DNA of 38,225 nt, taken from positions 1 through 38,225 of IMG/VR virus record IMGVR_UViG_3300030202_000868. One strand, written 5' to 3'. The notes below the pieces were generated by a model. That model was not told the origin of the DNA and searched no databases. It was given only the letters and a program-made list of their open reading frames with translations. This document shows, one piece after another, positions 7,205 through 31,673 of this stretch (within the stretch, counting starts at the first letter, position 1; each line of letters begins with the position of its first letter). The position numbers and the translations under genes were made by a program. Origin of the DNA: a virus.

Positions 7205-8761
7205 ATGTCTAATGCAATTGTAAAAAATCTTAACTTTGGAAACGAAGCTAGGGAAAATGTATTTAAAGGTATAATTAAACTTACACAAGCTGTTAGCTCC
7301 ACTTTAGGAGCTAGCGGTAAGTGTGTAATGTTAGAAGACGCAACAGGTAAACCAATTATAACTAAAGATGGTGTAACTGTAGCTGATTCAATTATACTAA
7401 GAGATCCAGTAGAAAACATGGGCGCTACATTATTAAAAGAAGCAGCTCGTAAAACAGTAAAAGAAGCAGGTGATGGCACAACCACTGCTACAATATTAGC
7501 ACATGCTATATTGAATGAAGCTTATAAAGTTTCAGATAAAAGTAATTCTAGAGAATTAAAAGATGGAATTAATAGTGCTGTTGAAAAAGTAGTTAAATAT
7601 CTAGAATCTATAGCTGTTCCAGTAAAAGGTAACATGATAGATCAAATAGCTACAATATCAACTAACAATGATAAAAAATTAGGAGAAATTATTGCTAATG
7701 CTTTTAGATCAGTAGATAACACAGGTGTTGTTATGATGGAAGTTTCACCATCGGGTAAAACAGAAGTGGAGGTTATTGAAGGAGTTCAATATGATAAAGG
7801 ATTAACAAATTCTCATTTTATAACAAATAAGCAGAATAAAACTGCTGAATTAGAAAACCCATTAGTATTATTGGTTGAATCACCTATTGAAACTATAAGA
7901 CAAATTCAATCGGTGCTAGAGTACGTAATAAAAAACAATAAACCTTTGCTTATTATAGGCGATTTAGAACAAGGTGTTTTATCAGCTCTAGCAATGAATA
8001 AAATGAAGGGTAATATAAAGATAAACGTTATTGATGCACCTACATATGGTATTAATAAAAAACAAACATTAGATGATTTATCTTTATTAACAGGCGCAAC
8101 TATTGTAAATGAAGATTTAGGTGATGACATGGACTTAATACAAGTGGAATATTTAGGTTCTTGTTTAAAAAGTGTTACATCGCACTCTGAAACAATTTTA
8201 CAAGTAGCTGATACTTCTAACGAAGTAAAAGAAGTAATACATAGTATAAAAACAAAACTTCAACAAGACAATCCTAGTCATGAGGTTATAAAGCTAGAAA
8301 AAAGATTAGCAATGTTAGCAGCAAAAATAGCTGTAGTTAAAGTAGGTGCAAATTCTGATATAGAGTTAAAAGAAAAACAAGATAGAGTAGAAGATGCTAT
8401 ATGTGCTACTAAAGCAGCTATAAAAGAAGGTATTGTTCCAGGTGGTGGAGTTGCTTTATTAAATGCAGCTATGAAACTAAAAGATAAAAATCAAGGTGAA
8501 ACTGTTTTAGGAAAAGCCATATTATCTCCATATAAAACAATACTAGATAACGCTGGTTATGAAGGATACAGAATAGCTGGTGATGATGGAAATGGTATTG
8601 ATGTAGTTACAGGAAATATGGTAAATATGATTGATGCTGGGATTATAGATCCTTTGTTAGTTACAAAAAGTGCTTTAAAAAACGCGGCTAGTGTAGCAAC
8701 AACAATATTGTCAACCGATTGTGTAATTAATAATTTAAGAATCGATGAAGGCAGTAGGTAG
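7205..8761 (+). CDS. groEL: phage-encoded chaperonin GroEL (Hsp60)
   Basis: A 518-residue group I chaperonin. E. coli GroEL has 548 residues, and the Gly-Met tail is missing here. By hand alignment with E. coli GroEL I see the ATP site: TLG at 33-35, ITKDGVTVA around D55 (E. coli D52), GDGTTTAT with D90 (D87), RVEDA with the catalytic Asp D397 (D398), GGGVAL at 413-418, and a DP motif near the end. Equatorial and intermediate domains are therefore intact and ATPase activity is expected. Differences are a P-K to A-S change after TLG and several changes in the apical polypeptide-binding groove (Y199 to L200, Y203 to H204, L234 to Q235). It overlaps groES by 17 bp, so the two are translationally coupled. 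Its likely job is folding phage virion proteins in the host cytoplasm, alone or in mixed complexes. Confidence 0.95.
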   Translation: MSNAIVKNLNFGNEARENVFKGIIKLTQAVSSTLGASGKCVMLEDATGKPIITKDGVTVADSIILRDPVENMGATLLKEAARKTVKEAGDGTTTATILAHAILNEAYKVSDKSNSRELKDGINSAVEKVVKYLESIAVPVKGNMIDQIATISTNNDKKLGEIIANAFRSVDNTGVVMMEVSPSGKTEVEVIEGVQYDKGLTNSHFITNKQNKTAELENPLVLLVESPIETIRQIQSVLEYVIKNNKPLLIIGDLEQGVLSALAMNKMKGNIKINVIDAPTYGINKKQTLDDLSLLTGATIVNEDLGDDMDLIQVEYLGSCLKSVTSHSETILQVADTSNEVKEVIHSIKTKLQQDNPSHEVIKLEKRLAMLAAKIAVVKVGANSDIELKEKQDRVEDAICATKAAIKEGIVPGGGVALLNAAMKLKDKNQGETVLGKAILSPYKTILDNAGYEGYRIAGDDGNGIDVVTGNMVNMIDAGIIDPLLVTKSALKNAASVATTILSTDCVINNLRIDEGSR

Positions 8762-9005
8762 AAATCTAATAATTAAAAAAGTAAAAGAAGGAACCACCAA
8801 AACAAAAGGTGGTTTGCTTCTTGCAGAAACTCATCGAGATGACATTAGATATGTAGAAGCTAGTGTTGTATCTTCAGGTGAAGAAATTAAAGGAATAAAA
8901 GAAGGTTCAAAAATATTTTTTGATAGACATGCTGGTCATAAAATAGAAATAGAAAAACAAACTTATCATGTTATAAAAGTTCAGGATGTAGTTGTTGTAT
9001 TATGA
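8745..9005 (+). CDS. groES: phage-encoded co-chaperonin GroES (Cpn10)
   Basis: An 86-residue GroES-fold protein (E. coli GroES has 97). The N-terminus, VGRNLIIKK, matches the first beta strand. It is followed by a mobile loop with GGLLLAE, where LLL corresponds to the E. coli GroEL-contacting IVL tripeptide. The segment between VVSSG and the KIFF strand is about nine residues shorter than in E. coli, removing most of the roof hairpin. The C-terminal strand HVIKVQDVVVVL is typical. The start overlaps the groEL end by 17 bp, and the stop shares ATGA with the next gene. The order groEL then groES is the reverse of the bacterial operon. Confidence 0.92.
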   Translation: MKAVGRNLIIKKVKEGTTKTKGGLLLAETHRDDIRYVEASVVSSGEEIKGIKEGSKIFFDRHAGHKIEIEKQTYHVIKVQDVVVVL

Positions 9006-9445
9006 GATTAAGCGCTAGTGATCTTAAAGATTTACAAATTCTTAAACATTATAGAATAATTAGAAAATGGGCTTGTAAAAATAATGGTTTAACAGATGCT
9101 GATTTAGAAGTTTTAATATATCTTGATTGCATGGATCTTTTTACTAAACATGATTTTGAACAAGGTGTTTATTCTTATAGTTGGGATAATAGAAGATGGA
9201 ATAGATTAATTTCAAATGGTTGGATAGTTGTATGGAGACATAGAAACAGAACAACTCAAAAATATAACATATATAAAGTTTCATTTAAGTGTAAACAACT
9301 TATTATGAGAATGTATAAAATTATGTTAGGCGAAGAAAATATACCAACAAGTGCAAGAAGAAATAAATTAATAAAAGGTAATAGCTATACAGATAAAGTA
9401 TTAACAAAAGCTATTTATAATGTAAATAAAGATAAAACAAGATGA
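9002..9445 (+). CDS. winged-helix-like DNA-binding protein (tentative)
   Basis: A basic 147-residue protein. Residues about 13-75 form a helical region (LKHYRIIRKWACKNNGLT, then ADLEVLIYLD), followed by WDNRRWNRLISNGWI and a strand-turn-strand WIVVWRHRN that looks like the recognition helix and wing of a MarR-type winged helix. The C-terminus is Lys/Arg-rich. No cofactor site is seen. It overlaps groES and the next gene by ATGA, so it belongs to the same operon and could be a late-gene regulator. The fold is a guess from sequence pattern; the function is unproven. Confidence 0.5.
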   Translation: MRLSASDLKDLQILKHYRIIRKWACKNNGLTDADLEVLIYLDCMDLFTKHDFEQGVYSYSWDNRRWNRLISNGWIVVWRHRNRTTQKYNIYKVSFKCKQLIMRMYKIMLGEENIPTSARRNKLIKGNSYTDKVLTKAIYNVNKDKTR

Positions 9446-9831
9446 GTAAAAGTCCGTTAAAATTTTTCAATAATTTAGCTGCAAGTCTGGGTGGTAACGC
9501 CTTATCAACTCTAACGCAAAGAATAAAAAATAGAGCTGGAAGAAATAGTGGTGGTAATCACGGCCAAATCATGTCTAAATTAAATGAAATTAGTAATAAA
9601 TTAAGCGGTGGTGCTAATACTACTTCACCAGCACCAACAACTCCAGCTACAGGTGGAACTCCTGGTTTACAAAATAATATGGACGACGTACAACCAACAA
9701 TGATAGATCCAACACAAGTAGATGAATCAATGATGGGTAATAACGCGGTTATTAATAGAGGTGGAAGCGCGTTAAATAAAGTCAAGAAGTATAAAGGTAA
9801 ATGTAAAATTAAAAAACCATATAAAAAATAA
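9442..9831 (+). CDS. small protein with N-terminal SPLK motif
   Basis: A 129-residue protein of unknown function. It begins MSKSPLKFF, has an Asn/Gly/Ser-rich helical stretch to about residue 52, a low-complexity Pro/Thr/Ala linker (near 57-72), and a very basic C-terminus with KKYKGKCKIKKPYKK. The basic tail suggests binding to nucleic acid. The SPLK start links it with six other small proteins in the following 3 kb. ATGA overlap with the upstream gene supports the start. Confidence 0.6.
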   Translation: MSKSPLKFFNNLAASLGGNALSTLTQRIKNRAGRNSGGNHGQIMSKLNEISNKLSGGANTTSPAPTTPATGGTPGLQNNMDDVQPTMIDPTQVDESMMGNNAVINRGGSALNKVKKYKGKCKIKKPYKK

Positions 9832-9835
9832 AGTT

Positions 9836-10057
9836 ATGCATCATAAAAAATATGATCCTTCAATGGAAAAATTAAAGCCAGGAACTAAAGTTGGTATAGT
9901 AGGTGAGTCTCATATATGGGACGGTCCACTAGATCAAGAAGGTAGACTACACGGTGTAGGTTCTAGTTCAGGTATTACTGGTAAACAAGTTTTAAAAGCT
10001 CCTACTTATTACAAAGGTATGCCAATAACACAATGTGCTAAAGTATATAAAAAATGA
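9836..10057 (+). CDS. small protein of unknown function (73 aa)
   Basis: A 73-residue basic protein beginning MHHKKYDPSM. The middle has the turn-rich stretch GTKVGIVGESHIWDGP and LHGVGSSSGITG, and there is one Cys near the C-terminus (TQCAKVYKK). I recognise no family. It is the only member of this cluster without a Ser-Pro-aromatic/aliphatic motif, although it has a DPSM at residues 7-10. It starts 4 bp after its neighbour and shares ATGA with the next gene. Confidence 0.55.
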   Translation: MHHKKYDPSMEKLKPGTKVGIVGESHIWDGPLDQEGRLHGVGSSSGITGKQVLKAPTYYKGMPITQCAKVYKK

Positions 10058-10254
10058 GGTCGCCATTTTATAAAGAAGGATTTCCTGAAATAAAAAAGGA
10101 AAACAAAGGAAAATTTACAGCTTGGGCTAAGAAAAACGGATTTAAAGACGCTTGTTCTGCGGCAGATGCTGTGATGAGTAAAAAAGATAATTATAGTGAC
10201 GAAGTAGTTAAAATGGCAAACTATGCTAAAAACTTCGGTTGCGCAGCTAAATAA
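10054..10254 (+). CDS. small SPF-start protein of a viral KFTAxAKK-type family
   Basis: A 66-residue basic protein. After MRSPFYKEGF it reads GKFTAWAKKNGFKDACSAA and ends with ANYAKNFGCAAK. This spaced pattern (KFTxxAKK at the front, Y..(E)VVK.ANYAKNFG at the back) recurs in short proteins of many marine phages and some large eukaryotic viruses. I cannot attach a reliable family number from memory. Two Cys residues might form a disulfide or bind metal. ATGA overlap with the preceding gene fixes the start. Function unknown; a DNA-binding or virion role is possible. Confidence 0.55.
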   Translation: MRSPFYKEGFPEIKKENKGKFTAWAKKNGFKDACSAADAVMSKKDNYSDEVVKMANYAKNFGCAAK

Positions 10255-10260
10255 AAAAAC

Positions 10261-10536
10261 ATGAGAAGTAAATCACCATTTAAACAAGATAAATGTACTA
10301 CTGCCTGGGCAAAGTGGGAAGAAGGGTATAGAAAAGTAGGTAAAGATAAACCTGAAGAAAAATTTAAAGGTCGCTCTGAGATGGAAGTTGAAAGAGGAGA
10401 ATTTGAGTGTAGAGACGGTAAAATCAAGTTGAAAAAGACTGATGATGCTGAAAGACCAATTGAAACTAAAAAAGAAGAAGAAAGTCCAGCTAAAAAAGTA
10501 TTTTCAGTAAGCGTAGGACCAAAACATAAATACTAA
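10261..10536 (+). CDS. small Lys/Glu-rich protein with SPF and SPAK motifs
   Basis: A 91-residue, highly charged protein. It opens MRSKSPFKQDKCTTAWAKWE and has a second Ser-Pro motif, S75-P76-A77-K78, before a hydrophobic-polar C-terminus VFSVSVGPKHKY. The TTAWAKW segment may be related to the TAWAKK segment of the preceding gene, suggesting that part of this pair arose by duplication. It probably consists of helices with disordered charged linkers. No enzyme motif. It follows the previous stop by 6 bp. Confidence 0.55.
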   Translation: MRSKSPFKQDKCTTAWAKWEEGYRKVGKDKPEEKFKGRSEMEVERGEFECRDGKIKLKKTDDAERPIETKKEEESPAKKVFSVSVGPKHKY

Positions 10537-10540
10537 AACT

Positions 10541-10804
10541 ATGAGTTCACCATTCCAAAAACAATTTAGTTCCAAATCTCCACTTAACGAGTTAAAAAGA
10601 GGAGAAGCTGGCTTTGAACAAGATCCTCAAGAAGCTATGTATGAGAGAATGTCTGACCAAATGGATAGACAAAAAGAAACAGATAGCAAACCATTGAGTA
10701 AAGAGGAAAGCAAAAGACTACATGCTGTATCTTCTATTAATTATGATAAAGTTGTTTCATCTGGTGGTGTAGATTTAGGTATAATTAAAAATAAAAATAA
10801 ATAA
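10541..10804 (+). CDS. small protein with SPFQ...SPLNE N-terminus (copy A)
   Basis: An 87-residue acidic/charged protein. The first 18 residues (MSSPFQKQFSSKSPLNEL) are nearly the same as in the next gene. The rest (Met-, Gln- and Glu-rich, then VSSGGVDLGIIKNKNK) differs completely. The double motif SPF and SPL within 15 residues is the clearest form of the shared tag in this cluster. The stop overlaps the next start as TAATG. Function unknown; the tag may target it to the virion. Confidence 0.6.
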   Translation: MSSPFQKQFSSKSPLNELKRGEAGFEQDPQEAMYERMSDQMDRQKETDSKPLSKEESKRLHAVSSINYDKVVSSGGVDLGIIKNKNK

Positions 10805-11565
10805 TGAGTTCACCATTTCAAAGAGCGTTTAGTAGCAAAAGTCCATTAAACGAGCATAAAAAAATCCAAAGGCAAATAAACATGCTTAGAAAGAATCCTG
10901 AAAGAGCTGAAAGAAAAGGATTAAGTTCAGAAGGACAAGGAGGTATTGATTTTGAAAAAATATCTCAGTTAGAAGCTAAACTTGCAGATGCTAAAGAAGC
11001 TCATAATAAAAATAGAACTGAAGAAGAAAGTTCTCAAGTTAGAGAAGATGAAGATGCTGCTCAAGGATCTGCTGCTGAAATGCGTAGTCCTTTAAATGGT
11101 AGTTATACTAGTCCTGCGGGTGAACCATATGTATCACATGTGGGAATGATACAACAAGCTGCTGGCGCTATTCAAGGAGCTTTAGATTCTTATATGAATG
11201 AAAGCGAAGCTAATAAAGCAAAAAGATTATCAGCTAGAGCACAAGGGAGAATGAACAGACTTGATCATTCAGGTGTTCAAAAATATGAAAAAGACGGTAA
11301 ACTGGTAGAGCTTAAAGAAAGTGATTTTTATGATGATATTAAAACAGCTACTGAGGATCAAAAGAAAGCTTTTGCAGATGCTAAAGCAAATGCTAGTTAT
11401 TATAATGAAGATAATGTAAATATAGATCATATCATGAATAAAACAGCTGATATACAAGGTAGAGCTATTAAGGCTGGTCAAAATGCAACTGCACAAGCTA
11501 CTGCTGAAAAAGATGCTGAAATCGAAGAACTTAAAAAGAAAATAGAATTATTAAAAACAAAATAA
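10804..11565 (+). CDS. coiled-coil protein with SPFQ...SPLNE N-terminus (copy B)
   Basis: A 253-residue protein sharing the tag MSSPFQRAFSSKSPLNEH with its neighbour and carrying a further motif R-S95-P96-L97-N98. The sequence is Ala/Lys/Glu-rich, with predicted coiled coils around 40-75 (ISQLEAKLADAKEAHNKN) and at the C-terminus (AEIEELKKKIELLKTK). A small hydrophobic patch, GMIQQAAGAIQGALDSYM, follows the third motif and resembles the membrane-active helices of phage ejection proteins. It may be a virion-internal protein. No enzymatic motif seen. Confidence 0.6.
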   Translation: MSSPFQRAFSSKSPLNEHKKIQRQINMLRKNPERAERKGLSSEGQGGIDFEKISQLEAKLADAKEAHNKNRTEEESSQVREDEDAAQGSAAEMRSPLNGSYTSPAGEPYVSHVGMIQQAAGAIQGALDSYMNESEANKAKRLSARAQGRMNRLDHSGVQKYEKDGKLVELKESDFYDDIKTATEDQKKAFADAKANASYYNEDNVNIDHIMNKTADIQGRAIKAGQNATAQATAEKDAEIEELKKKIELLKTK

Positions 11566-11567
11566 AA

Positions 11568-12146
11568 ATGGGACACAAAGGACATTGGGGCGAATATACT
11601 GGTAACGCAAAATGGTCAAAAGATCACGCTCATACAAAAGTTACTGACAGTAATTATAAAGCTTCAGAAAAAGACGATGCTGCTCATATTGATTACTTAA
11701 AAAGAGATATTAAAGACGATCAAAAATTTCATGTTAAAGATAAAGATGAAAAGCAAACAGCTGATGAAAAACATATATCTAAACTAGCAGGAGATATGAA
11801 GTATGATAAAGAACATCATGGTTCACCAGCTAAAAATGTAGGTATGGTAGCAGACGCTGGGTTAAAAGCAAGACGTCTATATGAAGATGCACACAATTAT
11901 GCATATGAAGATGATGGTTATATACATGATCCAAAATTTACACCAGGTCAAAAATTTGGTTATGAAGATTATAGAAAACCAGGTGGTTATGAATATGAAA
12001 ATCTACAGGCAATGGCTAGACATGCTGACATGAGAAATAGATTAGGTTATGATACTACTATGCAAAAAGAAGAAATAGATATGATGAATTATGATGACAT
12101 GCCTATTGAACCAACAGGACATGATGACTCAATGTTTAAACAATAA
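11568..12146 (+). CDS. His/Asp/Lys-rich hydrophilic protein with SPAK motif
   Basis: A 192-residue, very hydrophilic protein. It starts MGHKGHWGEYTGNAKWSKDH, and the first 80 residues are dense in His, Asp and Lys. The motif S86-P87-A88-K89 comes after HHG. The second half is Tyr/Glu/Asp-rich (YEDDGYIHD, FGYEDYRKPGGYEYE) and ends with Met/Asp-rich sequence. It is probably largely disordered. The start lies 2 bp after the previous stop. No known family; the His-rich part could bind metal. Confidence 0.5.
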   Translation: MGHKGHWGEYTGNAKWSKDHAHTKVTDSNYKASEKDDAAHIDYLKRDIKDDQKFHVKDKDEKQTADEKHISKLAGDMKYDKEHHGSPAKNVGMVADAGLKARRLYEDAHNYAYEDDGYIHDPKFTPGQKFGYEDYRKPGGYEYENLQAMARHADMRNRLGYDTTMQKEEIDMMNYDDMPIEPTGHDDSMFKQ

Positions 12147-12172
12147 TACAACAACTAATAAAAATTAAAAAA

Positions 12173-12439
12173 ATGGCTTATAACGACGATCCAATAATGA
12201 ACCAAAATAAAGGTTACGGACAAGAATCAGTAAAACAAGAAAGACATAACTTAATGAACGATAACCCAGTAGCAAAAGACGCTAGTGGTGGAAGAGATGG
12301 TTCATGGATGTCTAAACACTCACAATCAAGAATGGGAGGTGGCTCACCTTTAAAAGCTGCTAAACCAGATTATATTGATATTGATGGTGATGGTGATAAA
12401 AAAGAGTCTATGAAAAAGGCTGCTCAAGAGAAAAAATAA
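12173..12439 (+). CDS. small protein with SPLK motif and Asp-rich calcium-loop-like end
   Basis: An 88-residue polar protein. After a disordered Asn/Gln/Met-rich start it has GGG-S58-P59-L60-K61, then the Asp loop D69-I-D71-G-D73-G-D75 followed by KKESMKKAAQEKK. Short proteins ending in this DIDGDGDKKE pattern recur in marine phages. The Asp spacing resembles the first half of an EF-hand or dockerin loop, but position 12 is Met, not Glu, so calcium binding is uncertain. It closes the Ser-Pro motif cluster. Confidence 0.55.
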   Translation: MAYNDDPIMNQNKGYGQESVKQERHNLMNDNPVAKDASGGRDGSWMSKHSQSRMGGGSPLKAAKPDYIDIDGDGDKKESMKKAAQEKK

Positions 12440-13116: not shown

Positions 13117-13431
13117 ATGGCTTTTAAACTAGGACCACCACCTTACACTAAAAAAACTCCTGTATATCATGTACCAATGGAAGAAGGCGTAATGGGTAAA
13201 GCTAATAATAATGGAACAATTATTATAAATAAAGACGTGGATCCTGAGCAAGCTAAAAAAGTTATTGCTCATGAAGAAGTTCATATTGACCAAATGCAAA
13301 GAGGCGATTTAGATTATGATGATGATAATGTTTATTGGAAAGGAAAAGTATTTCCAAGAGACAAAATGAATGAAGGTGACTCAGCGTTACCTTGGGAAGA
13401 TGAAGCATATAAAAAAGTACCTAATGAGTAA
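13117..13431 (+). CDS. small HExxH zincin-like metallopeptidase
   Basis: A 104-residue protein with the zinc-protease motif H52-E53-E54-V55-H56 in the helix KKVIAHEEVHIDQMQRG. A candidate third ligand is E94 or E96 in the downstream PWEDEAY segment. The N-terminal GPPPYTKKTPVYHVPM and a short strand TIIIN come first. This is about the smallest size at which a zincin fold is possible. Related small HExxH proteins occur in phage structural regions, where processing of virion or cell-wall proteins is suspected. It overlaps the holin-like gene by 8 bp, which may hint at a lysis role. Activity is inferred from the motif only. Confidence 0.65.
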   Translation: MAFKLGPPPYTKKTPVYHVPMEEGVMGKANNNGTIIINKDVDPEQAKKVIAHEEVHIDQMQRGDLDYDDDNVYWKGKVFPRDKMNEGDSALPWEDEAYKKVPNE

Positions 13432-13882
13432 AAAGAAATTTAAAGATACAACTGTTGGACAATTATTGTTTGGAGCAGCTTCTGTAATAAATCCTACATT
13501 AGGAAATGTATTACAAGGCGTAACTTCACCAAAAGAGGCTATTGAAGCCATTACTAAAGCCGATGCTCCTGCTGAGGATAAGGTAAAATTACAACAAATA
13601 ATATACGAACAACAAACAAAAGAAATTGAAGCTATCACATCAAGATGGCAAGCAGACTCTATGTCAGATTCATGGATGTCAAAAAACGTGCGTCCACTAG
13701 TATTAGTGTGGTGTATTTGTATATTTTCACTAGCTGGTATTTTAGACAGTGTTGAAACTATACCGTTTCATATAAATGAATTATGGAACGACACTTTCGA
13801 GAAGGTTATGATGGCGGTTGTCCTAGCCTATTTCGGAGGACGAACGACAGAAAAAGCAAGTAATATATTTAAACAAAAATAA
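13424..13882 (+). CDS. holin-like protein, GTA-holin / 3TM type
   Basis: A 152-residue protein from the ATG at 13424, inside the overlap ATGAGTAA with the upstream gene. A longer frame from 13370 would overlap by 62 bp and is less likely. A moderately hydrophobic stretch (GQLLFGAASVINPTLGNVL) is followed by a charged amphipathic region. Then W-M-S-K-N-V-R-P precedes membrane segment 89-108 (VRPLVLVWCICIFSLAGIL), and a second runs about 125-139, ending in AYFGGR. The WxxxxVRP and AYFGGR marks match the phage/GTA holin family with three membrane segments. Its role would be to permeabilise the inner membrane at lysis. No endolysin is visible nearby unless the small HEEVH protein serves. Confidence 0.7.
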   Translation: MSKKKFKDTTVGQLLFGAASVINPTLGNVLQGVTSPKEAIEAITKADAPAEDKVKLQQIIYEQQTKEIEAITSRWQADSMSDSWMSKNVRPLVLVWCICIFSLAGILDSVETIPFHINELWNDTFEKVMMAVVLAYFGGRTTEKASNIFKQK

Positions 13883-14769: not shown

Positions 14770-14986
14770 TATTAGAAAAATCAGTATTGGATCTGATTAT
14801 AAAAATGACGCTATGCATTATGCTATTGGCCAAAACGTTTATGGTGGTCATGAAATAGCGTATATTATATTTGATGATTCTGATAATTCTTATAATATTT
14901 ATATAAAGAAAAACAGCGAGGTATTGCCGTGGAAAAAATTTAATTCTAACATGGCTATATCCGTTGAGTATGATTTAGAATATTAA
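14759..14986 (+). CDS. small protein of unknown function (75 aa)
   Basis: A 75-residue protein from the ATG at 14759 (MQSNIRKISIGSDY). A TTG twelve bases upstream in the same frame is possible but unnecessary. The end reads EVLPWKKFNSNMAISVEYDLEY, a pattern I associate with short proteins next to phage terminase genes. Alternating hydrophobic residues suggest a small beta fold. It overlaps both neighbours (11 bp and 1 bp). No enzymatic motif. Confidence 0.6.
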   Translation: MQSNIRKISIGSDYKNDAMHYAIGQNVYGGHEIAYIIFDDSDNSYNIYIKKNSEVLPWKKFNSNMAISVEYDLEY

Positions 14987-15591: not shown

Positions 15592-15811
15592 AGAGTTAAT
15601 TAAAGTTGCTAAAGAGCCAATTATAGATTTTGGACCAGACATTTCAGCGGATAGATTAAAAAATGCCGCAGCTACAAAAAAACTAGCAATATTTGATGCT
15701 TTTGAAATATTAAGTAGAATACAAGAAGAGCAAGACATGTTAGATGATAAACCAAAAGAAAACAAGAAGCAAAGCAATTTTAAAGGTTTTGCGGAAGGGA
15801 GATCTAAGTAA
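15536..15811 (+). CDS. putative terminase small subunit
   Basis: A 91-residue charged, helical protein with RVAVKELIKVAKEPI in the first third and DRLKNAAATKKLAIFDAFEILSRIQEE in the middle, then a disordered Lys/Gln-rich tail. This family stands directly before the large terminase in many marine phages, which is the main reason to call it the small terminase (DNA recognition at packaging). No helix-turn-helix is certain. Its first 56 bp lie inside the end of the upstream gene in another frame, and its stop touches the terL start. Confidence 0.5.
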   Translation: MSTKETKKNIIQAGRVAVKELIKVAKEPIIDFGPDISADRLKNAAATKKLAIFDAFEILSRIQEEQDMLDDKPKENKKQSNFKGFAEGRSK

Positions 15812-18024
15812 TGTACGAGCAAAGTTTATATAAAGTTTTAGATAACTACATAAAACCTAAAGTACTTAAAGATTTTAATAGATTAAAAAAGTGGAAGTAC
15901 GGTTACAATGAAGATCATGATATGATAGTTATTAGTAAAGATGGTACTGTAGGTGAAGTATATGAAATACAAAATCTTAAAATAGCTTTACCTAAAGCAA
16001 AAAATGTTCATAAATTTGAAAAAAATACATGGACAAAATTTGAATATCCAAAAATTTTAAGTAAAATAAAAACTGTTTTTGACTGGAAACAATACCCACA
16101 AGATTTTAAAGAAAAGTGGTATGATTATATAGATACAGAATTTACAAGAAGAGAAGATGGTTTTTGGTTTTATAATAAAAATAAAGCAACTTATTTAACA
16201 GGTACGCATTACATGTATTTACAATGGAGTAAAATAGATGTTGGTGCTCCAGATTATAGAGAGGCAAATAGATTATTTTTTATATTTTGGGAAGCTTGTA
16301 AAGCCGATTATAGATCATACGGTATGTGTTATTTAAAAAATAGACGTTCTGGTTTTTCATTTATGGCTTCAGGTGAATCAGTTAATTTAGCAACAATATC
16401 AAGTGATAGTAGATATGGTATATTATCAAAGTCAGGTGCTGATGCAAAAAAAATGTTTACTGATAAAGTAGTTCCTATATCGGTTAATTATCCTTTCTTT
16501 TTTAAACCTACACAAGATGGTATGGATCGTCCTAAAACAGAGTTAGCTTATCGTGTACCAGCTAGTAAGTTTACACGTAGAAAACTAACAGCTATAGATG
16601 ATTTAGATGAAGAATTAAAAGGATTAGATACTACAATTGACTGGAAAAATACAGGTGATAACGCTTATGATGGTGAAAAATTAAAATTATTAGTTCATGA
16701 TGAAAGTGGTAAATGGGAAAAACCTAATAATATTTTAAATAATTGGCGTGTAACTAAAACTACTTTAAGATTAGGTAGTAGAATTATTGGTAAATGTATG
16801 ATGGGTTCAACATCTAATGCATTAGACAAAGGTGGTAGAAATTTTAAAAAACTATATGATGATTCAGATGTTACAAAAAGAAACAGCAACGGACAGACTC
16901 GCTCAGGACTCTATTCTTTATTCATTCCTATGGAATGGAATTACGAAGGATACATTGATTCTTACGGAATGCCTGTATTCGAGACCCCATCAAAAAAAGT
17001 GTGTGGACCTCATGGAACGCCAATTAAGCTCGGGGTTATTGAGTACTGGGATAACGAAGTGGAGGGTTTAAAAGATGATCAAGATGCTTTAAACGAATTT
17101 TATAGACAGTTTCCACGAACAACAAAACACGCTTTTAGAGATGAATCTAAATCATCTTTATTTAATCTTACAAAAATATACGAACAAATAGACTTTAATG
17201 AAGATTTAAAAAATTCATTAGGTGTTACACAAGGTAGTTTTCAATGGGAAAATGGACACAAAGACACAAGAGTTATTTTTATACCAAACAAACAAGGTAG
17301 GTTTTATGTAACTTGGGTTCCACCAGTAGAACTACAAAATAAAAGATATTTAAAAAATGGAATAAATTATCCAGGTAACGAGCATTGTGGTGCTTTTGGA
17401 TGTGATCCATATGATATATCAGGAACAGTAGATAAAAGAGGTTCCAATGGATCTTTACATGGTTTAACTAAATTTAGCATGGAAGAAGTTCCACCTAATC
17501 ATTTCTTTTTAGAATACATAGCTAGACCACAAACAGCTGAAATATTTTTTGAAGATGTATTAATGGCATGTGTATTTTATGGTATGCCAATATTAGCAGA
17601 AAACAACAAACCAAGATTACTTTATTATTTTAAACGTAGAGGTTATAGAGGTTTTGCTATGAATAGACCAGATAAAAGAAGAAATAAATTATCTGTAACA
17701 GAAAGAGAAATAGGTGGTATACCTAATTCAAGCGAAGATATTAAACAAGCTCATGCATCTGCAATAGAAACTTATGTAGAACATTATGTAGGATTAAAAG
17801 AAGCAGGTTATGGGGATATGTATTTTCAAAGAACACTAGAAGACTGGGCTAGATTTGACATAAATAATAGAACAACTCATGATGCTTCTATTAGCTCTGG
17901 ACTTGCTTTAATGGCTTGTAATAAACATAGGTATTCACCTGTAAATAAAAGAGAGTTAAAACCAGTTGATTTAGGTATAAAAAAATACAATAATAAAGGA
18001 ACTTTATCAAAAATTATAAATTAA
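15811..18024 (+). CDS. terL: terminase large subunit
   Basis: A 737-residue DNA-packaging motor. The ATPase half has a degenerate Walker A, K176-N-R-R-S-G-F-S183, and a Walker B, LLVH-D297-E298. The nuclease half has an RNase H-like layout: G-C-D532-P-Y-D in a strand, E597 in ILAEN, and D691 in THDASISSG. These fit a metal-dependent nuclease that cuts concatemers. It docks to the portal encoded next (TAATG overlap). Bases 16861-17060 (between Walker B and the nuclease) have higher GC and TTC, TAC, CGC and GGG codons rare elsewhere in the gene, a possible recombination patch. Function is secure; exact catalytic residues are from motif reading. Confidence 0.9.
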   Translation: MYEQSLYKVLDNYIKPKVLKDFNRLKKWKYGYNEDHDMIVISKDGTVGEVYEIQNLKIALPKAKNVHKFEKNTWTKFEYPKILSKIKTVFDWKQYPQDFKEKWYDYIDTEFTRREDGFWFYNKNKATYLTGTHYMYLQWSKIDVGAPDYREANRLFFIFWEACKADYRSYGMCYLKNRRSGFSFMASGESVNLATISSDSRYGILSKSGADAKKMFTDKVVPISVNYPFFFKPTQDGMDRPKTELAYRVPASKFTRRKLTAIDDLDEELKGLDTTIDWKNTGDNAYDGEKLKLLVHDESGKWEKPNNILNNWRVTKTTLRLGSRIIGKCMMGSTSNALDKGGRNFKKLYDDSDVTKRNSNGQTRSGLYSLFIPMEWNYEGYIDSYGMPVFETPSKKVCGPHGTPIKLGVIEYWDNEVEGLKDDQDALNEFYRQFPRTTKHAFRDESKSSLFNLTKIYEQIDFNEDLKNSLGVTQGSFQWENGHKDTRVIFIPNKQGRFYVTWVPPVELQNKRYLKNGINYPGNEHCGAFGCDPYDISGTVDKRGSNGSLHGLTKFSMEEVPPNHFFLEYIARPQTAEIFFEDVLMACVFYGMPILAENNKPRLLYYFKRRGYRGFAMNRPDKRRNKLSVTEREIGGIPNSSEDIKQAHASAIETYVEHYVGLKEAGYGDMYFQRTLEDWARFDINNRTTHDASISSGLALMACNKHRYSPVNKRELKPVDLGIKKYNNKGTLSKIIN

Positions 18025-20411
18025 TGAATATATATACTAATACCAATAGTGCTTTCCCTAGTCAAGTAGTGAGTGATGCTGAAAAAGCTAGTATTGAATA
18101 TGGGAGTCAGGTTGCTATGGCTATTGAATATGAGTGGTTTAAATCAGGAAGAACTCAAGGTAATAGATATTTAACTAACTGGAATCAGTTTCACCAATTA
18201 AGACTGTATGCTCGTGGAGAACAAAGTATACAAAAATATAAAGATGAATTATCTATAAATGGTGATTTGTCTTATCTTAATTTAGACTGGCAACCAGTTC
18301 CTATATTATCTAAATTTGTAGATATAGTAGTAAACGGTATATCTGCAAAAACATATGACATAAAAGCTTTTGCTCAAGATCCATCTTCTATAAAGAAAAG
18401 AACTGAATATGCTTCTAAGATTCAAGAAGATATGCTTGCTAAACAATATCTTGATTCGTTAAAAGATTCATTACAAATAGATTTATATCAAAGCAAAAGT
18501 CCTGAGTTGTTACCAGAAACTCCTGAAGAATTAGAACTTCACATGCAGTTATCTTATAAGCAGAGTATAGAAATAGCTGAAGAAGAAGCTATAACATCTG
18601 TTATGGATCACAACAAATACGACTTAACAAAGCGAAGATTAAACATGGACTTAGCCGTGTGTGGTATTGCAGCGTGTAAAACAAACTTTAATACAGCTGA
18701 AGGAATAACAGTTGATTATGTAGATCCAGCTTATATGGTATATTCATACACAGAAGATCCTAACTTTGAAGATATATATTACGTTGGTGAAATTAAAGCT
18801 ATAACTATACCAGAGCTTAAAAAAGAGTTTCCAAATATATCAAATGAAGAATTAGAAAGAATACAAAAAATGCCTGGCAATAGAAATTATATTACAGGTT
18901 GGGGTGGTTATGATGAAAATACTGTACAAGTAATGTATTTTGATTATAAAACTTATCATAATCAAGTATTTAAAATAAAACAAACAGATCAAGGATTAGA
19001 AAAAGCATTAGAAAAACCTGATACTTTTAATCCTCCAGCTAATGATGGTTTTGAAAGAGTTAGTAGAAGTATAGAGGTTTTATATAGTGGAGCTAAAGTA
19101 TTAGGAACAGACACTATGTTAAAATGGGAGTTAGCAGAAAACATGTCTAGACCAGTATCAGATACTACAAAAGTAGAAATGAATTATGCTATATGTGCAC
19201 CACGTATGTATAAAGGTAGAATAGAATCACTTGTAAGTAAATGTATTGGTTTTGCTGATATGATACAGTTAACTCATTTAAAGTTACAACAAGTATTAGC
19301 TAAGATGGTACCAGATGGTGTTTACTTAGATATGGACGGACTTGCTGAAGTAGATCTAGGTAATGGAACTAATTATAATCCAGCAGAAGCACTAAACATG
19401 TATTTCCAAACAGGTAGTATTGTTGGTAGATCACTTACTCAAGACGGTGATATGAATCCTGGTAAAGTTCCTATTCAAGAATTAACATCTAGTTCTGGTC
19501 AAGGTAAAATACAAAGTTTAATATCCACATATCAATATTATTTACAAATGATAAGAGATGTGACCGGATTAAACGAAGCTAGAGATGGAAGCACACCTGA
19601 TAAACAAACTTTAGTTGGTTTACAAAAAATGGCAGCTAATGCTTCTAATGTAGCTACTAGACATATAAAACAAGCTGGTCTATACATAACATTAAGAATA
19701 GCAGAAAATATTGCTTTAAAAATAGCAGATGCTTTACAGTTTCCATTAACAGCAGAGTCTTTAGCTAATAATATATCTAATTACAATGTAAATACTTTAG
19801 TAGAAATACAAAATTTAAATTTACATGATTTTGGAATATATTTAGAATTAGAACCAGACGAAGAACAACAAGCTCAGTTAGAACAAAATATACAAATGGC
19901 GTTACAACAAGGTGATATAAATCTTGAAGACGCTATAGATTTAAGACAAATTAAAAATCTTAAACTAGCTAACCAATTACTTAAAGTAAAACGTAAATTA
20001 AAAGCTAGAGAAGATCATAAAAGAGCAATTGAACAAACTAAAGCTCAAGCAGAATCTCAAGCTCAAGCAGCTGAAGAGATAGCAATGGCTGAAGTTCAAA
20101 AACAAGAAGCTATTTCAAGTTCTAAAGTACAATATGAGCAAGCTAGATCTCAAATGGAAATACAACGTATGCAAACAGCTGCACAAATAGAACAAGAAAA
20201 AATGCAAGCTCAGTTCCAGTATGACATGCAGTTAAAGCAAATGGACATGCAGGCTATGGAGCAAAAAGAAAATAGAATAGAAGATCGTAAAGATAAGCGT
20301 ATAAAAATGGAAGGTACGCAACAAAGCAAGATGATAGATCAAAGAAAAAATGATCTAGCACCTATAGATTTTGAAGATAAAGACGTGGCTAGTGGAATGC
20401 TACCCGTTTAA
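18024..20411 (+). CDS. portal protein
   Basis: A 795-residue protein right after terL and before scaffold and capsid genes, the usual place of the portal. It has an N-terminal helical part with LYARGEQSIQKYKDEL and LDWQPVPILSKFVDIVVNG, a central region with VDYVDPAYMVYSYTEDP, and a long stem-like helical region. The last 180 residues are Gln-rich coiled coil (EQQAQLEQNIQMALQQG, AQAESQAQAAEEIA), typical for portals of podoviruses and crAss-like phages. It forms the dodecameric DNA channel and binds terminase and connectors. The identification rests on position, length and architecture. Confidence 0.85.
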   Translation: MNIYTNTNSAFPSQVVSDAEKASIEYGSQVAMAIEYEWFKSGRTQGNRYLTNWNQFHQLRLYARGEQSIQKYKDELSINGDLSYLNLDWQPVPILSKFVDIVVNGISAKTYDIKAFAQDPSSIKKRTEYASKIQEDMLAKQYLDSLKDSLQIDLYQSKSPELLPETPEELELHMQLSYKQSIEIAEEEAITSVMDHNKYDLTKRRLNMDLAVCGIAACKTNFNTAEGITVDYVDPAYMVYSYTEDPNFEDIYYVGEIKAITIPELKKEFPNISNEELERIQKMPGNRNYITGWGGYDENTVQVMYFDYKTYHNQVFKIKQTDQGLEKALEKPDTFNPPANDGFERVSRSIEVLYSGAKVLGTDTMLKWELAENMSRPVSDTTKVEMNYAICAPRMYKGRIESLVSKCIGFADMIQLTHLKLQQVLAKMVPDGVYLDMDGLAEVDLGNGTNYNPAEALNMYFQTGSIVGRSLTQDGDMNPGKVPIQELTSSSGQGKIQSLISTYQYYLQMIRDVTGLNEARDGSTPDKQTLVGLQKMAANASNVATRHIKQAGLYITLRIAENIALKIADALQFPLTAESLANNISNYNVNTLVEIQNLNLHDFGIYLELEPDEEQQAQLEQNIQMALQQGDINLEDAIDLRQIKNLKLANQLLKVKRKLKAREDHKRAIEQTKAQAESQAQAAEEIAMAEVQKQEAISSSKVQYEQARSQMEIQRMQTAAQIEQEKMQAQFQYDMQLKQMDMQAMEQKENRIEDRKDKRIKMEGTQQSKMIDQRKNDLAPIDFEDKDVASGMLPV

Positions 20412-20438: not shown

Positions 20439-21653
20439 ATGTCAGAAGTAAAAACAAATGAACCTGTTAAGCAGGAAGGTGACTTTAAAATTAAATCTAA
20501 AAAACCAAAACAATTGGTAAGTACTGAAGAAACAGTAAAAAAAGTTAGTTTAAAAGAGCCATTAGTAGAAATACCTAACGATGTTACTAAGGTTACAATA
20601 CCTAAGGAAGCATTTAAAAAAGAAGAGGAAAATGCCATTCAAATCGGAGAAACAAAGGAGATACCTGTGGAAGAACCATCCGGAGATAGCGCAGAGGTGG
20701 GAGAACCTGTACAAGAGTCCGACGAGACTACTGAAGGGTTTTCTCCGATCAAAGAAGTAACCGAAGAAAAGGTTGAAAAAGTAGAACAAGAAGTAAAAGA
20801 AGCTATTAGAGATGAAAAAGTATTAGGTAAGGAATTACCTGATAACATTCAAAAACTTGTTTCATTTATGGAAGATACTGGTGGATCAGTAGAAGATTAT
20901 GTAAGATTAAATGCTGATTACAGTAATGTAGATGATACTACTTTATTAAAAGAATATTATAAGCAGACTAAACCACATTTAGATGCTGAGGAAATAGATT
21001 TTATCATGGAAGATAAATTCCATTTCGATACAGATATTGACGAAGAGCGTGACGTCAAAAAGAAAAAACTCGCTAAAAAAGAGGAGATTGCAAAAGCTAA
21101 AAACTTTTTAGAAGAAACTAAGAAGAAATATTACGACGAAATCAAGTTGAGACCCGGCGTATCTGAAGATCAACAAAAAGCTATGGACTTTTTCAATCGA
21201 TACAATAAGCAGCAAGAAATAGCTGAACAGCAACATAAAGTTTTTCAAGAAAATACTAATAAATTTTTTACTGAAAATTTTGAAGGTTTCGATATTAAAG
21301 TAGGAGATAAACAATATAAGTATAATATTAAAGACGTAAATAAAGTTGCTGAAAACCAATCAAACATTAATAACTTAGTTAAGAAGTTCTTAGATAGTGA
21401 AGGTAATGTTAGTGATGCGGCTGGTTATCACAAAGCAATTTATGCAGCTGAAAATGTAGATAGAATAGCGTCTCATTTTTATGAGCAAGGAAAAGCAGAT
21501 GCGGTTAAAGACGTGGTGAATAAATCTAAAAATTTATCACCAACAAAAGCTAGAACCCAACAAGGTGAAGTTTTTGTAAACGGCTTTAAAGTTAAATCTA
21601 TTTCTGGAGCTGATTCTACAAAATTGAAAATTAAGAAAAGAAAATTTAACTAA
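20439..21653 (+). CDS. scaffolding-like head assembly protein
   Basis: A 404-residue, highly charged helical protein between portal and major capsid genes. The N-terminal 130 residues are acidic and probably disordered (Glu/Val/Lys repeats). The centre has coiled-coil helices (EEIAKAKNFLEETKKKYYDEI, FFNRYNKQQEIAEQQHKVF), and the C-terminus is basic (LKIKKRKFN), as scaffold ends that bind capsid protein are. No protease motif is seen here, so head maturation may not use a linked prohead protease. Bases 20641-20760 are nearly half GC, unlike the surrounding sequence. Function is from position and composition. Confidence 0.75.
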   Translation: MSEVKTNEPVKQEGDFKIKSKKPKQLVSTEETVKKVSLKEPLVEIPNDVTKVTIPKEAFKKEEENAIQIGETKEIPVEEPSGDSAEVGEPVQESDETTEGFSPIKEVTEEKVEKVEQEVKEAIRDEKVLGKELPDNIQKLVSFMEDTGGSVEDYVRLNADYSNVDDTTLLKEYYKQTKPHLDAEEIDFIMEDKFHFDTDIDEERDVKKKKLAKKEEIAKAKNFLEETKKKYYDEIKLRPGVSEDQQKAMDFFNRYNKQQEIAEQQHKVFQENTNKFFTENFEGFDIKVGDKQYKYNIKDVNKVAENQSNINNLVKKFLDSEGNVSDAAGYHKAIYAAENVDRIASHFYEQGKADAVKDVVNKSKNLSPTKARTQQGEVFVNGFKVKSISGADSTKLKIKKRKFN

Positions 21654-21669
21654 TTAAAAATTACAAATT

Positions 21670-23127
21670 ATGAGTTTATCTCCACAATTTGGTAGTATTG
21701 TACCAAGTCCTATTCAAACTCCAAGTCCTTCAAACTACTTAGTATTTGATGGTGCGGCGGGCGGAAACTTTGCGCAACAATATTTACCAGAAATTTACGA
21801 ACAAGAAGTAGAGCGTTATGGAAACAGAACGTTATCTGGCTTTTTGAGAATGGTTGGTGCAGAAATGCCAATGACCTCAGATCAAGTAATCTGGTCTGAA
21901 CAAAATAGATTACATATATCTTACGACAACTGTAGCGTAGCTGCAGGAGGAGGAGCTGGTGCGGCTTTAGCATCAGTTGTTACAATTCCAGTTGGTGCAG
22001 GTATAACTAACGTTATATCTATTAATGATACTGTAGTTCTTCTAGACCCAGCAAATGGTGCAGAAGCTAAAGGTATCGTAACTAACAGAGCTGCTGGTAA
22101 CGTAACAGTTATGCCATTTGCAAACGCAACATTTGATGCACAAGGAATTAGTATTGCTTCTGCAACAATTAAAATGTTTGTTTATGGTTCTGACTATACT
22201 AAAGGATCAAGTATTGGAGCAGGAGTAGGAAACTCTGCTGCTAGAGTAAGTATCGATCCTTCTTTCACGCAGTTTTCTAACTCACCAGTGATCATAAGAG
22301 ATCAGTACGTTGTTACTGGATCTGATATGGCACAAATCGGTTGGGTTGAAGTTGCTACTGAAGATGGTCAATCTGGATACCTTTGGTATTTAAAAGCTGA
22401 GTCTGAAACTAGATTAAGATTTGAAGATTACTTAGAAATGGCAATGGTAGAAGGTGAATTAAATGCTAACGCTAACGGTGCTGCAGGGCAATATGCTACT
22501 GCTGTTTTACCAGGTACACAAGGTTTATTTGCTGCTATTAGAGACAGAGGTAATGTAGAAGTAGGATTTACTGCTGCTAACGGTCTTGATGAGTTTGATG
22601 CAATACTTAAAAACCTAGATACTCAGGGAGCTATCGAAGAAAACATGTTATTCTTACAAAGACAAACTGCTCTTGATTTTGATGATATGTTAGCTTCTAT
22701 CTCTGGTGGATTTGCTGGTGGTACTGCATTTGGTTTATTTGAAAATTCAGAGGAAATGGCACTTAACTTAGGTTTCTCTGGTTTTAGAAGAGGTTCTTAT
22801 GACTTCTATAAAACTGACTGGAAATACTTAAACGATGCTTCTACAAGAGGTGCTATCGTAGGTGTTAATTCAATCGAAGGTGTATTAGTTCCTGCTGGAA
22901 CAAGCACAGTTTATGATCAAATCTTAGGTACTAACATTAGAAGACCTTTCTTACACGTAAGATATAGAGCTTCTCAAGGTGACGACAGAAGAATGAAATC
23001 ATGGTTAACTGGTTCTGCTGGTGGTGCATTTACTTCAACTCTTGATGCTATGGAAGTTAACTTCCTATCTGAAAGATGTTTAGTAACTCAAGCTGCTAAC
23101 AACTTCGTTTTATTCCAAGGATTATAA
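21670..23127 (+). CDS. major capsid protein (HK97-like)
   Basis: A 485-residue protein after scaffold and before a strong terminator. The N-terminal arm is Pro/Ser-rich (SPQFGSIVPSPIQTPSPSN). It is followed by LPEIYEQEVERYGNRTLSGFLR (an N-arm/E-loop-like helix), a variable Ala/Gly/Val domain at about 85-190, and conserved-looking core segments PVIIRDQYVVTGSDMAQIGWVEV, FEDYLEMAMVEGELNANAN and FLHVRYRASQGDDRRMKSW. Size and place fit the HK97-fold capsid proteins of Bacteroidota podoviruses. Codons ending in C (AAC, TTC) are more frequent than in neighbours, which fits very high expression. It is a likely client of the phage chaperonin. Confidence 0.85.
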   Translation: MSLSPQFGSIVPSPIQTPSPSNYLVFDGAAGGNFAQQYLPEIYEQEVERYGNRTLSGFLRMVGAEMPMTSDQVIWSEQNRLHISYDNCSVAAGGGAGAALASVVTIPVGAGITNVISINDTVVLLDPANGAEAKGIVTNRAAGNVTVMPFANATFDAQGISIASATIKMFVYGSDYTKGSSIGAGVGNSAARVSIDPSFTQFSNSPVIIRDQYVVTGSDMAQIGWVEVATEDGQSGYLWYLKAESETRLRFEDYLEMAMVEGELNANANGAAGQYATAVLPGTQGLFAAIRDRGNVEVGFTAANGLDEFDAILKNLDTQGAIEENMLFLQRQTALDFDDMLASISGGFAGGTAFGLFENSEEMALNLGFSGFRRGSYDFYKTDWKYLNDASTRGAIVGVNSIEGVLVPAGTSTVYDQILGTNIRRPFLHVRYRASQGDDRRMKSWLTGSAGGAFTSTLDAMEVNFLSERCLVTQAANNFVLFQGL

Positions 23128-30203: not shown

Positions 30204-31673
30204 ATGGCTGCTATAATAGAAGTTAAATACTTCAATACATTTCTTCTAAAGAAAGTAAACCAAACAATAACGAATCCCAATTATGGAAATATTCCTTCTT
30301 GGAATGGTTCTATGGGTATACCTGCAGCTAAAGGAGGTTATCCTATATCTAATGCAGATGTTCCACAAAATTGGGTTATAGAAGAATCTAGAATTAATGG
30401 TGGTTATAACAATACCTCAGTATCTTTTGGTGCTAAAGCATATTTAGTAGAAGAAGAACCTAATGGATCTAGACGTGGAAACTCTTTAATATACTCAGGT
30501 ATATTCAACTCTAGAACAGGTATAAACAATACAAATGTGTTTTCAGTAGGAGAAGATATAATTAAATCACTAGATCCAGCTAATGGAAGTATACAAAAAC
30601 TTTATGCTGAAGATACTAATTTAAATATATTTCAAGAATTAAAAATTAGTAGAGCATTAATTGATAAAGACGCTATATATTCTGCGGAAGGTGGTGGAGC
30701 TGTTACAAGTGCTAATCTTGTTATTGGAGCTATTCAACCTTATGCTGGTAAATATGGTATTAGTGATGATCCTACAAGTTTTGCAGTATACGGTACTGAT
30801 AAATATTTTACTGATAGAAACAACGGAACTGTTTTAAAATTATCTGGAGGCTTAGTAGAAATATCTAGAGCCAACATGATAGATTATTTTAGAGATAGAT
30901 TAGGATCAGGTATTGTAGTAGGTGGAGTAACAGGAAGAGTTATAGGTGGTTGGGATATACATAATAAACAATATGTTCTTTCAACACAAGAGCCAGGTGC
31001 ACAAGCTGATACTTTAGAAGATGGTTATGAAACTCTAGCATGGGACAATATTGTTCAAGGTTGGACTAGCTTTTTTACATATAAACCAGAATTAATGTTT
31101 AGCTTAGGTAATAAGTTTTATAGTGCAAAATTTGGTAGTTTATATGAGCATTATTCTATAGCTGGTACAAGAAACTTATTCTATGAGAATGACGGTCAAA
31201 CAGTTAAACCCACTTCTATAACATTTGTTTTTAATCCTAATGTAAGTTTATCTAAAACTTTTAAAACAGTTGATTATGAAGGAAGTAATGGTTGGCAAAT
31301 AAATTCTTTTGTATCTGATCTTACAGGTATGAATAATGTTACTAATAATAACAACTGGGCAGAGTTTCAAGATGCAACTACTCAAGTATATAGCTATACA
31401 CAAGGACAGTATGATGCTGCAGGTAATGTATATCCTAATGCTAACCCACCGTTTTATTATGCTGGGTTTAATAGAAAAGAAAATAAATATGTGGCTAACT
31501 TGGTAAATAATAGTTTACCTATGCCTGGTGAAATTACTTATGGCGCAGCTATATCTGGTATAAAAGGATTTTTAGCCACTGTAACAATAGCTACAGATAC
31601 AGTTACAGAACCAGGTGGTGAAAAAGAATTATTCTCTGTTGGTAGTGAGTTTATAGCTAACAGCGGATATTAA
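30204..31673 (+). CDS. tail stabilization-type partner protein (489 aa)
   Basis: A 489-residue protein. After MAAIIEVKYFNTFLLKKV it carries LIYSGIFNSRTGINNTNVFS, the stretch SLDPANGSIQKLYAEDTNLN, then FQELKISRALIDKDAIYSAEG and FAVYGTDKYFTDRNNGTVLKLS. These blocks belong to the same tail stabilization family as the upstream gene; in other phages they can, as I recall, be part of one longer protein. So the nozzle is built from two chains here. The C-terminal part is beta-rich with PPFYYAGFNRKENKYVANL. No catalytic motif is seen. The A-rich leader lacks a Shine-Dalgarno. Confidence 0.65.
   Translation: MAAIIEVKYFNTFLLKKVNQTITNPNYGNIPSWNGSMGIPAAKGGYPISNADVPQNWVIEESRINGGYNNTSVSFGAKAYLVEEEPNGSRRGNSLIYSGIFNSRTGINNTNVFSVGEDIIKSLDPANGSIQKLYAEDTNLNIFQELKISRALIDKDAIYSAEGGGAVTSANLVIGAIQPYAGKYGISDDPTSFAVYGTDKYFTDRNNGTVLKLSGGLVEISRANMIDYFRDRLGSGIVVGGVTGRVIGGWDIHNKQYVLSTQEPGAQADTLEDGYETLAWDNIVQGWTSFFTYKPELMFSLGNKFYSAKFGSLYEHYSIAGTRNLFYENDGQTVKPTSITFVFNPNVSLSKTFKTVDYEGSNGWQINSFVSDLTGMNNVTNNNNWAEFQDATTQVYSYTQGQYDAAGNVYPNANPPFYYAGFNRKENKYVANLVNNSLPMPGEITYGAAISGIKGFLATVTIATDTVTEPGGEKELFSVGSEFIANSGY

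Follow-up and report, generated by a model that had tools for sequence, protein, structure and literature searches.

A short Ser-Pro tag on otherwise different small proteins of a crAss-related marine phage, a candidate virion-loading signal

The window analysed here, a whole stretch of 38,225 bases from a virus (IMG/VR record IMGVR_UViG_3300030202_000868, positions 1 to 38,225), was found to encode GroEL and a GroES-like protein followed by a run of small genes, a holin, a terminase, a portal and a probable capsid protein. Otherwise different proteins of the small-gene run (the cassette) carry a short peptide, Ser-Pro followed by Phe, Leu or Ala, mostly near the N-terminus, which is referred to here as the tag. 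Open reading frames (ORFs) come from mechanical calling (ATG starts, minimum length 40 amino acids (aa)), so some starts are wrong; genes whose coordinates are written with two dots lie on the plus strand.

The first tagged gene (9442..9831) encodes a 129-aa protein with the tag MSKSPLK (9442-9462) and SPAP at residue 62, and its homologues in three related loci (L002-L004) retain the tag. It is followed by a 73-aa protein of the VGIVGESxIWDGPL family (9836..10057), which has no SP motif in the window; in this family SP was found in only one of 33 distinct homologous N-termini, that of L023 (MKKSPLKMLEDK). The 66-aa product of 10054..10254 begins with MRSPFYK (10054-10074) and continues into a small conserved domain, FPEIKxENKGKFTAWAKKNGFK, present also in gut crAss phages, where it heads a glycine-zipper protein in cr127_1 (L312:2992-4722) and forms a stand-alone 72-aa gene beside head genes in cr50_1 (L313:2971-3189). 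Next come a 91-aa protein (10261..10536) with MRSKSPFK (10261-10284) and SPAK at residue 75 (10483-10494), an 87-aa protein (10541..10804) with the double tag MSSPFQKQFSSKSPLNE (10541-10591), and a 253-aa protein (10804..11565) with the double tag MSSPFQRAFSSKSPLNE (10804-10854), SPLN at residue 95 and SPAG at 103. The last two of these proteins are identical in 16 of 19 N-terminal residues, with four of those codons synonymously different, and BLASTP gave no match between their bodies. The tag is internal in a 192-aa protein (11568..12146; SPAK at residue 86, 11823-11834) and in an 88-aa protein (12173..12439), where SPLK at residue 58 (12344-12355) immediately precedes a DIDGDGDKKE C-terminal segment (phrog_24078). 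No significant Pfam match was obtained for the cassette proteins, and PADLOC gave no match to known anti-phage defence proteins.

A first-pass annotation of the window had claimed one short tag, mostly N-terminal, on otherwise different products of seven of eight consecutive small genes (9442-12439). This description is correct, with every motif that it cited in place. SP[FLA] occurs at 13 sites in seven of the eight proteins (shuffle means 0.44 sites and 0.43 proteins), five proteins have it within the first 10 residues (mean 0.03), and K, N, Q or Y directly follows 11 of the 13 sites (mean 0.12), none of these values being reached in 20,000 residue shuffles of the eight ORFs. The 13 sites fall within 979 aa of cassette protein, compared with three in the 10,010 aa of the other 26 genes of the window. 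Two genes extend the earlier picture, namely the untagged 9836..10057, which has the tagged homologue in L023, and 13117..13431, which lies outside the interval first described. The latter encodes a 104-aa zincin-like putative metallopeptidase (HEEVH) whose start, MAFKLGPPPY, is one version of the tag's long form, M-A-F-K-(M/L)-x-(S/P/A)-P-(F/Y). Upstream of the terminase the window also has a gene (14986-15591) where relatives have an annotated co-chaperonin GroES; the MKSPFYFI-type start of this co-chaperonin-like gene was rejected as a tag, as it occurs in tagless relatives too (MKSPFYFI, MRSPHYFI).

The tag was followed in two sets of related loci (sub-clades A and B, with 71 and 64 loci having cassette genes), picked by terminase similarity alone; the locus was taken as the region between GroEL and the terminase, and proteins were dereplicated ignoring their first 12 residues. 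SP[FLAM] within 25 residues of the start was found 34 times in the 71 loci (3.5 expected, largest shuffle 8) and 13 times in the 64 loci (2.1 expected, largest shuffle 6). Starts of the form M-[APGS]-[FY]-K-[MLQV] were found on 24 and 13 cassette proteins of the two sets (0.1 and 0.0 expected). As residue shuffles ignore dipeptide structure, the reversed motif and the genes downstream of the terminase served as controls. PS[FLAM] was at expectation in both sets, and downstream of the terminase no M-[APGS]-[FY]-K-[MLQV] start was found and the SP motif was not above chance. Shuffling had been named in the first-pass annotation as one way to refute the motif, which withstood it easily, here and in relatives alike; chance or composition is rejected by the shuffles and the reversed motif.

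A scan of the collection for M-A-F-K-M-K starts, which is blind to SP, returned 80 loci, and in their 87 distinct longer proteins SP[FLAM] occurred 34 times (5.3 expected); the SP[FL] and M-A-F-K elements thus belong together. Nearly all 80 loci carry the terminase or GroEL of the clade, so that the tag marks a single clade of phages and a single locus. When 23 records (15 loci without a clear local match plus other loci of the clade) were checked as whole contigs, 18 had a terminase at 68-82% identity and the remaining five look like chance. Three of the four large contigs examined whole have tags mainly in the cassette, and in set B the M-[APGS]-[FY]-K-[MLQV] start is also found on five of 20 genes upstream of GroEL. 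In a smaller set from genome bins both elements were enriched above 70% terminase identity (SP 4 against 0.55, the M-[APGS]-[FY]-K-[MLQV] start 3 against 0.03) and neither below it; the tag is absent from cultured relatives and from relatives with terminases below 70%. Compared beyond residue 14, the tagged proteins form 133 BLASTP-distinct clusters. A tblastn search with the tag peptide gave no match in annotated phages, scans with a degenerate MSSPFQ pattern were uninformative owing to too few fixed bases, and a literature search for MAFKMKG found nothing, absence from the searched collection being no proof of novelty.

Selection acts on the amino-acid sequence of the tag. Serine of SPxK is encoded by both TCN and AGY codons, alanine by all four GCN codons (GCT, GCA, GCG and GCC) and phenylalanine by TTT and TTC, and the DNA upstream of tagged starts is not conserved; a DNA-level start or recombination signal was rejected on the codon data. 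Among 45 diverged zincin-like peptidases F3 is invariant, as are the HExxH residues H52, E53 and H56, and mean entropy is 0.40 for residues 1-4, 2.09 for the next eight and 1.43 for residues 13-104. The zincin fold is predicted confidently except for residues 1-10 (predicted local distance difference test score 48, predicted disordered); its likeness to minimal metallopeptidases (selecase, abylysin, IrrE) is weak, none of the matches falling under E 0.001. A tag that is conserved yet predicted to be unstructured suggests a docking peptide. In one zincin (L041:4721-5188) MGFKMKGSPY stands mid-chain after a second SP-tagged segment, which indicates either fused tagged proteins or a wrong start. 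Mimicry of the capsid protein N-terminus (M-S-L-S/T-P-Q-F-G) was considered and rejected, SP being present in 12 of 86 homologues.

The tag is also retained on homologous cores whose N-termini otherwise differ. The arms before the FPEIKxxNKGKFTAW core read MRSPFYKEG, MLSPFLKK, MYSSPFFKE and MSYIQYTSPFMQKE, all keeping SP, and distant members of the family begin with MANQ or MANE. SP precedes the core in 18 of 24 distinct N-termini of DUF6321 proteins and in seven of nine of DUF5872-like proteins. The commonest forms are SPF or SPL followed by N, Q or K; NPF and PPY variants occur, and proteins of L059 and L068 have runs of SPAK or SPMK.

The cassette is bordered upstream by the phage GroEL gene (7205..8761), which was used for tblastn against relatives, with a GroES-like gene 3' of it (8745..9005; assigned by sequence and position). 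The annotation of the environmental genome MW202828 has the same order, GroEL and then a 'chaperonin 10 kd subunit'. Downstream lie the holin (13370..13882; phrog_3427) and the terminase large subunit (15811..18024; phrog_6681), the downstream border of the cassette, followed by the portal protein (18024..20411; phrog_6547, with P22_portal below its cut-off) and the probable major capsid protein (21670..23127; phrog_13704), a weak match to Crass_capsid (PF23898, 22.1 bits, under the cut-off of 27). Neither the capsid nor the portal protein matched the PDB by sequence. Between them, 20439..21653 encodes a 404-aa protein (gp20439), modelled at low confidence (predicted template modelling score 0.32) with its first ~108 residues disordered and helices thereafter; it has no similarity to a crAss peptidase, and its position alone makes it a candidate scaffold or docking partner. 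A protein with the crAss muzzle C-terminal domain (30204..31673; PF25729, crAss_MUZ_C, 34.7 bits, cut-off 27) and the first part of a giant protein whose ORF continues past the end of the contig (33805..38223) complete the set. The latter has a large polyvalent protein domain, LPD14, below its cut-off; relatives encode proteins of several thousand residues at this place, and the giant protein is possibly another delivered protein.

By terminase identity the nearest cultured relatives are Flavobacterium elemo phages (44%) and Maribacter Panino (41%), followed by the Cellulophaga phi13:2 and phi38:1 groups (37-38%) and Tenacibaculum Gundel (30%); MW202828 is at 63%. A genome-bin scan placed relatives in bins labelled as several Bacteroidota, plus other bins that are probably contaminated. 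On the basis of the muzzle domain, these cultured relatives and the bin labels, the phage is crAss-related, though it is not called a member of the Crassvirales, and its host is probably a marine Bacteroidota. A relative with 66% terminase identity lies within a 1.05-Mb record titled as an Aenigmatarchaeota chromosome (L343, CP070801.1 861143-883347), probably an assembly or binning error. In another (G013:C1:15974-18188) the terminase match is split and has one TGA and one TAG inside it, the result of a frameshift, a sequencing error or a decayed gene.

A link to the virion is provided by phage phi40:1, whose annotation marks gp069, gp077 and gp080 as structural 'based on experimental MS/MS proteomics analysis', MS/MS being tandem mass spectrometry. 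By sequence gp069 and gp080 are small Lys-rich proteins. Homologues of gp080 (phi38:1/phi40:1), with and without the tag and mostly at E 1e-9 to 1e-13, occur in the marine clade; tagged ones include MAFKMKSPLK... in L197 (E 1e-10) and MNSSPIRLK... in L101. Even with the tag set aside, tagged proteins are also more basic than the rest of the cassette's proteins (p = 4e-5), which fits proteins packed inside with the DNA. crAss virions store several megadaltons of cargo protein (PMC10172136).

It is proposed that SP[FL]x, often after M-[AGPS]-[FY]-K-[MLQ]-x, acts at the protein level as a targeting tag, a short linear motif, which late proteins of one crAss-related marine phage clade carry on a flexible N-terminal arm and sometimes internally too. 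Through this arm these proteins, which are small, basic and mostly accessory, most likely dock onto a single common component of the virion during its assembly, which may be the scaffold or core, the portal or the inner face of the capsid; the docked proteins would then enter the particle and might be delivered along with its DNA. A virion-loading tag of this kind, working like the T4 capsid-targeting sequence (CTS) and evolved independently in crAss-related phages of marine Bacteroidota, is given a probability of about one half. The first-pass annotation had likewise suggested cargo that docks in the capsid through a common partner, and this remains plausible in view of the gp080 homology, crAss cargo storage and the conserved but disordered tag, but loading, ejection and processing signals, which it had offered side by side, are indistinguishable here. 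It is conceivable, if somewhat doubtful, that the tag is a general loading code that arose independently of that of T4 in an abundant group of crAss-related marine phages, by which any small gene gaining an M-A-F-K-M-K-x-S-P-F/L arm joins an open-ended, fast-changing payload carried in the virion and handed to the bacterium together with the DNA.

Several observations weigh against a loading tag. What has been detected in virions is the untagged homologue, gp080 of phi40:1, and so far none of the tagged proteins; the tag is therefore not required for the gp080 family in phi40:1, and untagged homologues occur within the clade (L184, L298, L289, L180). Cassette families with wide conservation are essentially untagged (GLGD, SP in none of 37 N-termini; VGIVGES, the one of 33 given above), and the tag is therefore family-selective. 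The fourth large contig, the 77-kb G016, has no tagged gene by the pattern used, from which it follows that the tag is dispensable. When entire proteins are counted, the excess of SP sites in sub-clade B is only slight (31 against 19.4), and no prohead protease family match or docking partner was found among the structural proteins examined in the 38-kb fragment.

The same evidence bears on other explanations of the tag. It may dock to a partner outside the virion in the infected cell (the phage GroEL, a phage polymerase or a host complex) and so concentrate accessory proteins there; the adjoining GroEL and GroES genes in the window and in many relatives, the pairing of hydrophobic residues with Lys in the motif and the cell-acting look of the zincin-type peptidases are consistent with this. 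GroEL, however, also stands beside tagless late cassettes (MW202828, elemo phages), the cassette lies in the lysis and packaging block and a virion protein detected by MS/MS has its homologues in one tagged family, so that we consider a partner of this kind unlikely. A proteolytic processing or N-terminal modification site for one enzyme, rather than a localisation signal, would agree with a motif that is short, disordered, mostly N-terminal and at times repeated between segments. This seems improbable, since the window genes examined revealed no maturation protease, conservation spans the bipartite motif from residue 1, and internal copies precede conserved domains and separate no obvious pro-region. 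Histone-tail S-P-K-K motifs bind DNA, and SPxK might likewise help basic proteins to coat packaged DNA, given that the tagged proteins are Lys-rich and some have the SPAK/SPMK runs; little probability is attached to this, as SPF or SPL with N, Q or K, the conserved aromatic and aliphatic residues and the NPF/PPY variants are more in keeping with a hydrophobic pocket than with a DNA groove. Shared starts that recombination has passed between genes (reuse of a 5' segment) or that enhance translation, with no function in the protein, would suit a hypervariable, modular cassette with A-rich starts and the common 19-residue N-terminus of two adjacent genes, but are very improbable and largely refuted by the codon data, as synonymous codons vary freely, upstream DNA is unconserved, the motif also occurs far from start codons and F3 is invariant in the 45 zincins.

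If the tag does load proteins, it would make the delivered payload readable straight from the sequence in a widespread group of marine phages, where almost every small gene is 'unknown', and its short, portable peptide could be used to bring proteins into a crAss-type particle. Should the tag not serve loading, a motif on more than 100 unrelated clusters at one locus still points to one conserved and directly searchable partner.

Among known systems, the tagless gp069 and gp080 of phi40:1/phi38:1 share the genome neighbourhood, and homologues of gp080 are among the clade's tagged proteins. Cyanophages S-SM1 (L308:1568-3055) and S-RIM8 (L310:1013-2788) fuse DUF6321 and DUF5872-like domains in T4-GC119, a single chain with no SPF/SPL tag, whereas in the marine clade these are separate tagged proteins; the annotation of S-E7 labels T4-GC119 a 'structural protein', and the main text of the S-SM1 paper calls it hypothetical. 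The window phage has a muzzle domain of the crAss type, and its probable capsid protein matches that of crAss phages weakly, below the cut-off. The crAss001 cargo (gp45, gp46, gp47, gp49 and gp50) resembles the proposed payload in being stored in the head and tail of a crAss-type virion, but consists of a few large conserved proteins, and in the part of its description available no short common loading tag turned up (PMC10172136). No cassette protein had a significant Pfam match to crAss cargo, only the 10054..10254 domain was found in gut crAss phages, and no direct alignment to crAss001 gp45-gp50 was made. In phage P1, of another lineage, the first 30 residues of DarB direct a reporter to the capsid (PMC9024508), also an N-terminal loading signal, but one described for a single large protein and not a motif common to many. 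In the T4 CTS (~10 aa; internal proteins IPI-III and Alt), as in the marine tag, small accessory proteins that otherwise differ within one phage have a short N-terminal peptide in common; the T4 peptide can bring almost any protein into the prohead (PMC7697877, PMC7411985). Unlike the CTS, the marine tag is also internal and repeated, stands on many more protein families (the 133 clusters of the clade), and has no gp21-like protease or cleavage found for it; the two show no resemblance by eye, and loading is proven for the CTS and proposed for the marine tag. If it loads proteins, the marine tag would be a further phage loading code after those of T4 and P1 DarB, apparently unrelated to them in sequence.

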